From: an uncultured Gammaproteobacteria bacterium
GTDB taxonomy: Bacteria; Pseudomonadota; Gammaproteobacteria; GCA-002705445; GCA-002716945
Direction: 5' to 3'
Assembly (NCBI GenBank): GCA_902559355.1
Contig: CACEHM010000002.1
Coordinates: forward strand, 107,246-171,245
Length of the DNA stretch: 64,000 nucleotides
Shown piece by piece: positions 42,764-45,288 of the stretch (positions are counted from its first letter, which is position 1; each line of letters opens with the position of its first letter). Under the pieces are notes generated by a model that saw only the letters and a program-made list of their open reading frames with translations, did no database searches and was not told the origin of the DNA. The position numbers and the translations under genes are program-made.

Positions 42764-43329
42764 TGGTCGATCATTCACTTCTCAGAAATGGCAACAAAGT
42801 TCTTGTTGATAATCAACCCTATGTAATCATGGATACAGACTTTGTTAATCCAGGTAAAGGCCAAGCGTTTACTAAAATTAAGATAAAAAATCTTTTAAAT
42901 AAGAAAACTATTGAAAAGACTGTTAAAATTGGTGAAGAACTCAATGAAGCAGATGTTCTTAACACCTCAATGCAATTTCTCTATCAAGAATCAAACACTT
43001 TATTTTTTATGAATCTTGAATCTTATGAACAGATTGAATTAAATGTATCTTCGATAGACTTCGATCCTAGATGGTTAAATGATGGTGATGAATGTAACGT
43101 CACAATCTGGAATGAAGCTATCATAGATGTTGAGCTTCCTAATTTTGTTGTATGTAAAGTTACATCGACAGAAAGTGTTGCAAAAGGAGATACTGTATCA
43201 TCCACACTTAAAGATGCAGAATTAGATAATGGTATTACTGTAAAAGTTCCTGCATTCATCAAACAAGGTGAGGATATTAAACTTAATCCAAGTACTGGCG
43301 AATATTCATCAAGAGCAAAAAATGACTAA
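42763..43329 (+). CDS. efp: Translation elongation factor P
   Basis: Relieves ribosome stalling at consecutive prolines. Three beta-barrel domains over 188 aa; the modification-site Lys lies in NPGKGQAFTKIKIKNL, the K34-type context that EpmA beta-lysylates in gammaproteobacteria. The C-terminal motif GITVKVPAFIKQGEDIKL is diagnostic. Translationally coupled to htpX (TAATG) and overlapped by the next gene by eight bases. Confidence 0.95.
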   Translation: MVDHSLLRNGNKVLVDNQPYVIMDTDFVNPGKGQAFTKIKIKNLLNKKTIEKTVKIGEELNEADVLNTSMQFLYQESNTLFFMNLESYEQIELNVSSIDFDPRWLNDGDECNVTIWNEAIIDVELPNFVVCKVTSTESVAKGDTVSSTLKDAELDNGITVKVPAFIKQGEDIKLNPSTGEYSSRAKND

Positions 43330-43702
43330 AGCGCAAGAACGTAGAAAAGCTGTAGAACAAGCTATACAAGAGCATAAAGCAAAAAAAAATAAATACATAA
43401 TAGCTGCAGTATTTTGGTTTCTATCAAGTTTATATATATATTCAAATGATGCGGGCTTTTCTGATGTTTATTCTTTAAAGCCATTTGTTTACTTTATAGT
43501 AGGTCCAGTCTTTGCATCTATCGTATTCGGTAACATCATGTTCTTCATGCAAAAAATAATAGAAAAAGGCGTAATTGGTTTTTTCGGAAAGAATTCTCAA
43601 AACCTTGTTTTACCCGTGATCTCATTCGTATTCTTTTGTGCATTAGTCGGAATGTTTATTATAATATTTAAATTTGCTGAACTACTACAAACCATTATCT
43701 AG
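43322..43702 (+). CDS. Hypothetical three-helix membrane protein
   Basis: I do not recognise this family. The track starts it at 43268, inside efp; the ATG at 43322 (MTKAQERRKAVEQAIQEHKA) is more likely because it leaves only an eight-base overlap with efp. The 126-aa product has a basic, helical N-terminus of about 22 residues, then roughly three membrane segments (from YIIAAVFWFLSSLYIY, FVYFIVGPVFASIVFG and VLPVISFVFFCALVGMFIII). Probably translated with efp. Confidence 0.65.
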   Translation: MTKAQERRKAVEQAIQEHKAKKNKYIIAAVFWFLSSLYIYSNDAGFSDVYSLKPFVYFIVGPVFASIVFGNIMFFMQKIIEKGVIGFFGKNSQNLVLPVISFVFFCALVGMFIIIFKFAELLQTII

Positions 43703-43778: not shown

Positions 43779-44108
43779 ATGATTTTTATGCCTATACTTA
43801 TGAGAGACATATTATTACCAGTTCTTATATCAACTGTCTATTGGCTAGCTTTATATAATGGCGTCTTATTTCTTAACCTTTTTGTTTTTGTTGTATTATC
43901 TATTGTTTATGTTTATTACTGCAAATGGGTTAATGCGAATTATGAGCATATGTTTTCTCAAGAATCTGTTGATGAAAAACTTAAAGACATGAATGGATTC
44001 TCAAGGCGTATTATTACAGGTATATGGGTATCACACTTTGCATTCTTCTTCTTTGGGGGAATAAGCTTAGGTGTTTCAGTACCTTTTATCATCTACTTCA
44101 ATTTGTAA
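43779..44108 (+). CDS. Hypothetical membrane protein
   Basis: Not recognised. The 109-aa sequence contains three likely membrane helices (LLPVLISTVYWLALYNGVL, NLFVFVVLSIVYVYYC and IWVSHFAFFFFGGISLGVSV) separated by a polar loop with EHMFSQESVDEKLKDMNG. Possible starts are ATG 43779 or ATG 43788. It stands alone between the efp cluster and the photolyase-like gene. Confidence 0.6.
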   Translation: MIFMPILMRDILLPVLISTVYWLALYNGVLFLNLFVFVVLSIVYVYYCKWVNANYEHMFSQESVDEKLKDMNGFSRRIITGIWVSHFAFFFFGGISLGVSVPFIIYFNL

Positions 44109-44142: not shown

Positions 44143-45288
44143 ATGACTGATATATATGAACAAGCAAAAGATAAATTAGATAACTTTATAAAAAATGATA
44201 TTCTTACTTACTCTAAGAATAGGAACTATGATTATGGACCTAAAAATAGATCCAATGTATCTCATCTATCAAAATACATAACCCATCGTGTCATCAATGA
44301 ATATGATGTTATTAATTTAGCTTTATCAGAGTATTCTCTAACAAAAATAGAAAAATATGTTCAAGAAGTATTTTGGAGGGTTTATTGGAAAGGATGGCTA
44401 GAACATAGACCACAGGTATGGAGTGATTATTATGAATACTCAAACAACAATTCAAATAGTGAAGCCTATAAAAAGGCGATCGAAGGAACAACAGGAATTG
44501 TATGTTTTGATAATTGGGTAGAGGAATTAGTAAATGAAAACTACTTACATAATCATACAAGGATGTGGTTTGCAAGCATATGGATATTTACGTTAAATCT
44601 ACCATGGCAATTAGGCGCTAATTTTTTTATGAGACATTTACTGGATGGTGACAGCGCTTCGAATACTCTCAGCTGGAGATGGGTAGCGGGCCTTCAAACA
44701 ATTGGGAAACATTATTTAGCAACCGCGTCTAATATTAGTAAATTTACTAATAATGTTCATAAACCGCAAAACTTAAATGAAGATGCATTGCCACTCAATG
44801 AAAACAAAACCTATGACTTGATAGATATAAACTATTCTACTTTAGAACAAAGCAGTGATACGCTTCTAATAGCTGATAATAATCTTTCTTTGAAAAATCA
44901 TGAAGATATCTATTCAAAATACAAACATGTCTATTTGTTGTACCTTTCTAATGAATGTAGAAACATCGAGCTCAGTGAAAATGTATTGAATTTTAAACAT
45001 TCAATACTTCAAGATTTTTCTAATAAATATTCTAAATCACAAATAGTGAGTGGAAGTGATTTAAAAAAAGAGATGGATATAACTCAGAACATAGATGTTA
45101 TTTATCCATGTATTGGAGAAAATCATTCATTTTTAGAAAATAACAAAAATAATTGCAAATTAAATTATATCTATGGACAAGAGGATTTGTTCTGTTGGAA
45201 ATATGCAAAAAAGGGATTTTTCAATTTTAAAAAAAATATACCATTGATTATTGATAAAATTATCAAATCAAAAGATTTTTTTATCTAA
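44143..45288 (+). CDS. Photolyase/cryptochrome-like FAD-binding protein with rearranged domains
   Basis: Residues about 20-200 match the FAD-binding helical domain of DNA photolyases: SNVSHLSKYITHRVINEYDV, VFWRVYWKGWLEHRP, HNHTRMWFASIWIF and LDGDSASNTLSWRWVAG. The N-terminal antenna (Rossmann) domain that precedes it in ordinary photolyases is absent. Instead the C-terminal 160 residues alternate strands and helices (TLLIADNNLSLKNHEDIYSK, VYLLYLSNECRN, VIYPCIGEN), as if a Rossmann-like domain had moved behind the FAD domain. Catalysis is unproven; repair, photoreception or another flavin role are all possible. Single gene, 34 bases after a membrane-protein gene. Confidence 0.72.
   Translation: MTDIYEQAKDKLDNFIKNDILTYSKNRNYDYGPKNRSNVSHLSKYITHRVINEYDVINLALSEYSLTKIEKYVQEVFWRVYWKGWLEHRPQVWSDYYEYSNNNSNSEAYKKAIEGTTGIVCFDNWVEELVNENYLHNHTRMWFASIWIFTLNLPWQLGANFFMRHLLDGDSASNTLSWRWVAGLQTIGKHYLATASNISKFTNNVHKPQNLNEDALPLNENKTYDLIDINYSTLEQSSDTLLIADNNLSLKNHEDIYSKYKHVYLLYLSNECRNIELSENVLNFKHSILQDFSNKYSKSQIVSGSDLKKEMDITQNIDVIYPCIGENHSFLENNKNNCKLNYIYGQEDLFCWKYAKKGFFNFKKNIPLIIDKIIKSKDFFI

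Follow-up and report, generated by a model that had tools for sequence, protein, structure and literature searches.

A probable NewPHL-type photolyase with an FAD-binding domain ahead of an alpha/beta domain in an uncultured gammaproteobacterium

The locus and its gene neighbourhood

The window (the whole stretch of DNA analysed, 64,000 nucleotides) derives from an uncultured Gammaproteobacteria bacterium with a genome of 1.04 Mb and carries, on its forward strand, the following gene and features:

44143..45288, + strand: putative NewPHL-type photolyase gene, 381 aa, ATG to TAA (full-length homologues and tree)
44143..44754, + strand: all-helical, N-terminal FAD-binding catalytic domain, aa 1 to ~204 (PF03441, family profile and AlphaFold2)
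44755..44829, + strand: linker, aa 205-229, without predicted secondary structure (AlphaFold2)
44830..45285, + strand: C-terminal alpha/beta domain, the 'Z-domain' of NewPHL, aa 230-381, with five predicted strands (AlphaFold2)
45184..45246, + strand: C-terminal signature region DLFCWKYAKKGFFNFKKNIPL, aa 348-368, common to alphaproteobacterial homologues

The Pfam profile FAD_binding_7 (PF03441) was identified at aa 73-192 (E = 4e-19) and in all 26 aligned relatives of the protein. The antenna domain (PF00875) had no Pfam match in the protein or in the same 26 relatives, and the FAD domain therefore has no antenna domain ahead of it, as the original prediction had held for a helical FAD domain at the N-terminus. 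The FAD core is homologous to that of class I cyclobutane pyrimidine dimer (CPD) photolyases (1owl and 1dnp, with the class III-type 4u63 close by) over ~180 residues, and the CPD-site residues are shared. In those enzymes, however, an antenna domain leads and PF03441 is present in full, a layout (PF00875, then PF03441) that the window protein does not have: its match stops two thirds of the way through the profile (positions 2-127 of 203), and its C-terminal third is different. Class I photolyases could be aligned to the family profile from residue 7 to ~190, and the profile aligned to residues 228-408 of 4u63 and 210-395 of 1owl; no solved structure aligned past residue ~200, so none covers the Z-domain.

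An AlphaFold2 model of the full protein, built with 26 sequences (pLDDT 89.9, pTM 0.89), consists of helices up to residue ~201, the linker, and then five strands (240-243, 262-267, 299-303, 316-321 and 339-344) that alternate with helices, bearing out the strand/helix alternation first read from the sequence. The C-terminal region is thus predicted to adopt a five-strand alpha/beta, Rossmann-like/HUP fold. Both the Rossmann-like character of this region and the reversal of domain order relative to photolyases and cryptochromes had been proposed earlier, and both are backed by AlphaFold2 and Foldseek, the former by a Foldseek search with the domain itself.

Two small membrane proteins lacking Pfam matches (43322-43702 and 43779-44108) lie directly upstream, in an order that is kept in close SAR86 relatives. 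As the other neighbours were read from sequence as what are presumably HtpX-like and EF-P-like proteins, the gene's own context is uninformative. Among 86 loci of relatives, 57 have a PF04244 photolyase near the gene, no more than 500 bases away in 49 of them; a DCC1-like gene occurs in 51, mostly in SAR11, and class I-like photolyases were nearby at seven. In SAR11, a (6-4)-type photolyase is usually found close to the NewPHL gene. Most SAR11 loci (e.g. L033:5968-7798) share a conserved gene arrangement that may serve against light damage: an MsrA-like gene, the NewPHL gene, and then the DCC1-like gene and the PF04244 photolyase on the opposite strand. At four loci of one SAR86-type group (L052:5715-5990, L027, L059 and L066), the start of the NewPHL gene lies within an alkyltransferase-like gene (MGMT DNA-binding domain), with an overlap of ~14 bases. 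Elsewhere in the host genome are a class I photolyase (472-aa frame; G000:C4:69340, L001) and a PF04244-like photolyase of 500 aa whose FAD part has several cysteines (G000:C4:51262, L003), which together with the window protein make three members of the photolyase family.

Relatives, phylogeny and likeness to NewPHL

At least 577 relatives were identified in GTDB genomes, the best 80 of which are essentially full length and belong to SAR86, Pelagibacteraceae, SAR116 and comparable marine groups; the closest, among the matches listed, are from SAR86 and other marine Gammaproteobacteria, which suggests a SAR86-like origin for the host genome. The ORF is therefore neither a chance frame nor an assembly artefact, and the full frame kept in the best 80 of these loci also rules out a pseudogene or fusion artefact. 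Using tblastn, full-length colinear homologues were found at 34-37% identity in Ruegeria, Peteryoungia, Novosphingobium and Niveispirillum, with Roseobacteraceae, Rhizobiaceae and Sphingomonadaceae among the families represented. Those on named alphaproteobacterial plasmids (34-37% identity, 92-95% of length covered) are described, where annotated, only as 'FAD-binding domain-containing protein'. Of 398 evenly drawn Pseudomonadota genomes, 38 contained a homologue of the Niveispirillum protein at an E-value of 1e-20 or better, and in 30 of these the match spans almost the entire protein. A search of IMG/VR with the window protein found no viral copies, and phage records gave partial matches confined to the FAD part. 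One alphaproteobacterial copy (L155, G378:C3) is split between frames with an internal stop, which looks like gene decay or a sequencing error. On a Persicobacter (Bacteroidota) plasmid (L119), a divergent protein with its FAD domain first is encoded by a frame that runs at its end into the beginning of a photolyase/cryptochrome-like ORF.

In a maximum-likelihood tree built on the FAD domain, the window protein groups with SAR86, SAR11 and SAR116 proteins (support 100/98), and these marine forms, the homologues from Alphaproteobacteria and a second SAR86 genus form one clade (100/99) that is sister to the SPL proteins (95/85) and apart from the class I and PF04244 photolyases. D348, K357, G358, F360, F362 and I366 of the signature region are invariant, and a loose pattern of the signature was found in 26/26 marine and 33/35 alphaproteobacterial sequences, in 5/5 from other SAR86 and in 0/13 class I photolyases.

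This architecture corresponds to NewPHL, the photolyase type of Emmerich et al. (2020, NAR 48:12845), which in the accounts given by later papers combines an N-terminal FAD domain with a C-terminal 'Z-domain' and repairs CPDs in single-stranded DNA (PMC13274461, PMC9426592). Its characterised members are, by the accessions of the citing paper, D. shibae A8LJA9 and M. mesophilicum M7YZC8 (PMC13274461). Similarly, Phr7 of Prochlorococcus is a NewPHL-type protein with a C-terminal Z-domain and no Fe-S cysteines (PMC9426592). The window protein resembles both in having its FAD domain first, no antenna domain ahead of it, no Fe-S cysteines and a Z-domain that is shared with alphaproteobacterial proteins, and along its whole length it aligns colinearly with homologues of this architecture from Roseobacteraceae and Rhizobiaceae. 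The Ruegeria and Peteryoungia homologues come from the same family or order as the characterised NewPHLs of D. shibae and M. mesophilicum, and it is through such proteins of related species that the window protein, judged by sequence, is linked to characterised NewPHLs as a member of their SAR86/SAR11/SAR116 branch. Unlike the alphaproteobacterial forms, to which it is ~35% identical, it sits in this separate sub-branch, for which no characterised member was found; a literature search on NewPHL-type photolyases in SAR11 and SAR86 likewise returned nothing relevant. The reversed domain order is real, but it was published in 2020 and adds no new type of photoreceptor. The suggestion of an undescribed photoreceptor or repair flavoprotein, which was to be given up if the family had already been described with this architecture, is overturned by the published accounts of NewPHL (2020) and of Phr7 with its Z-domain (PMC9426592).

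Flavin site, lesion site and probable function

Residues were mapped by phmmer alignment to the A. nidulans photolyase (1owl) and compared with the FAD contacts published for that enzyme; Y228 and the TS-LS motif were positioned by eye from the family alignment, and T346 fell outside the mapped positions. Nine of the 12 FAD-contact positions compared are conserved (A. nidulans/window: Y228/Y23, S241/S40, L243/L42, S244/S43, R287/R79, N349/N137, D380/D168, D382/D170 and N386/N174), while three are altered (T240 to V39, W280 to Y72 and A385 to S173). E283, W286, N349, M353 and W392 of the A. nidulans enzyme, which we take from established photolyase biochemistry to be its CPD-site residues, all have conserved counterparts (E75, W78, N137, M141 and W180). 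The proximal (W178) and middle (W155) electron-transfer tryptophans are also conserved, and the position of the distal tryptophan of the class I triad (W314 in A. nidulans) is an alignment gap. The Fe-S cysteine set is absent, with five cysteines in the whole protein and only C121 within the catalytic domain. Conservation of the FAD-contact, CPD-site and tryptophan positions therefore supports assignment as a putative light-driven CPD photolyase.

Taken with the phylogeny and with the repair genes that lie near the gene in relatives, we consider it highly probable (about 0.88) that the protein is a photolyase of the NewPHL group, in which an N-terminal domain binds FAD and lesion, a Z-domain closes the flavin site and light drives the splitting of CPDs. 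The gene product is thus most likely a light-powered enzyme that repairs UV-damaged DNA, probably single-stranded DNA by analogy with characterised NewPHLs. In the proposed mechanism, the helical domain would hold FAD and the lesion while the Z-domain packs onto it and seals the flavin site, as the C-terminal domain reportedly does in the 2020 NewPHL study. Blue or UV-A light would excite the reduced FAD, from which an electron would pass to a dimer that has flipped into the pocket; splitting of the dimer and return of the electron would follow. The preferred substrate would be a CPD in single-stranded DNA.

A cryptochrome-like light sensor that signals flavin photoreduction through its C-terminal domain would share the FAD domain of cryptochromes, which often carry C-terminal extensions, and weak CRY matches did occur among the NCBIfam results. 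However, E75, W78, M141 and W180 of the CPD site are invariant, flavin N5 is faced by Asn (N174) instead of the Asp of plant CRYs, repair genes adjoin the genes of relatives, and characterised NewPHLs repair CPDs, making a sensor very improbable. A NewPHL-like protein acting on (6-4) photoproducts or double-stranded CPDs is less far-fetched, as strandedness cannot be read from sequence and the sister Phr4/Phr6 forms have been suggested to be (6-4) photolyases (PMC9426592). Phr4 and Phr6 nonetheless have four Fe-S cysteines in the FAD domain, a set that is absent from the window protein, whose class I-type CPD pocket residues are conserved. In addition, the genome already encodes class I and PF04244-like photolyases, which leaves the single-stranded DNA niche to the window protein, and we regard a different substrate as unlikely. 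As a CPD photolyase of the NewPHL group, the protein would represent an ssDNA-type photolyase that is widespread in abundant heterotrophs of the sunlit ocean (SAR11, SAR86 and SAR116), and its usual proximity to a (6-4)-type enzyme in SAR11 suggests that at least two or three components make up light-driven repair in these bacteria.

Origin of the C-terminal domain

The Z-domain may be an antenna domain that was relocated to the C-terminus by way of split genes and then reduced to a pigment-independent lid, having diverged strongly in the marine branch; this is the simplest reading, which we hold tentatively, at somewhat short of even odds. A credible minority alternative is that an unrelated Rossmann/HUP domain was fused to the FAD domain. 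Folded alone, the domain gave a confident model (pLDDT 89.7), and Pfam detected neither PF00875 nor any other credible family in it. In Foldseek searches with the isolated domain, photolyases had the highest TM scores, though with E-values never below 0.001: 0.60-0.61 to the class II enzyme of M. mazei, 0.53 to 8ijy and 0.39-0.54 in other photolyase rows. Fusion of an unrelated domain would be consistent with the return of the HUP-class folds of CoaD and USP in the same search (E ~5e-3), but these reached TM scores of at most 0.45 and 0.35, respectively.

Sequence similarity to the antenna domain is weak, which also speaks for an unrelated domain. Using hhalign, the merged Z alignment matched class I antenna domains with P = 6.2e-4 over 95 columns, the best value obtained, versus 0.14 for argininosuccinate synthase, 0.13 for SDR and 0.16 for the class I catalytic domain as controls, and 0.21 for the PF04244 N-terminal domain, which is itself photolyase-related. 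The alphaproteobacterial Z set alone gave P = 0.008, so that both sets score far better against class I antenna domains than against unrelated profiles, as would not be expected of an unrelated domain. In contrast, a different antenna alignment gave P = 0.055-0.15, the Z subset of the second SAR86 genus did not prefer the antenna domain over controls, and the marine set alone did not clearly separate the two; P < 0.01 was obtained only from the merged and alphaproteobacterial sets, the single-clade alignments being small.

The SPL proteins (Xu et al. 2021; PMC9426592), sister to the NewPHL-architecture clade, argue further against an unrelated domain. Like the window protein they have the FAD domain first and then an alpha/beta domain, which in SPL is a separate downstream gene or part of a longer fusion, and the 140-170 aa ORF directly downstream of the SPL FAD gene is unmistakably an antenna domain (hhalign 96%, 1.7e-9). 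Circular permutation, as originally proposed, is therefore retained as the relocation of a domain and held less likely as a single step, with relocation through split genes the likelier course because the sister proteins have their alpha/beta domain as a separate downstream ORF. Such split-gene forms offer a concrete route to an inverted photolyase domain order. As split and fused reversed forms have already been published as Phr4/Phr5 and Phr6 (PMC9426592), the idea of relocation is at most a refinement. Four loci (L150, L151, L152 and L153) carry a Z-less SPL gene with an overlapping or adjacent downstream ORF for a bare, Phr5-like antenna domain, and one further locus (L154) encodes a 415-aa protein in which the FAD domain is followed by a longer alpha/beta-looking region, possibly a fusion of such a split pair.
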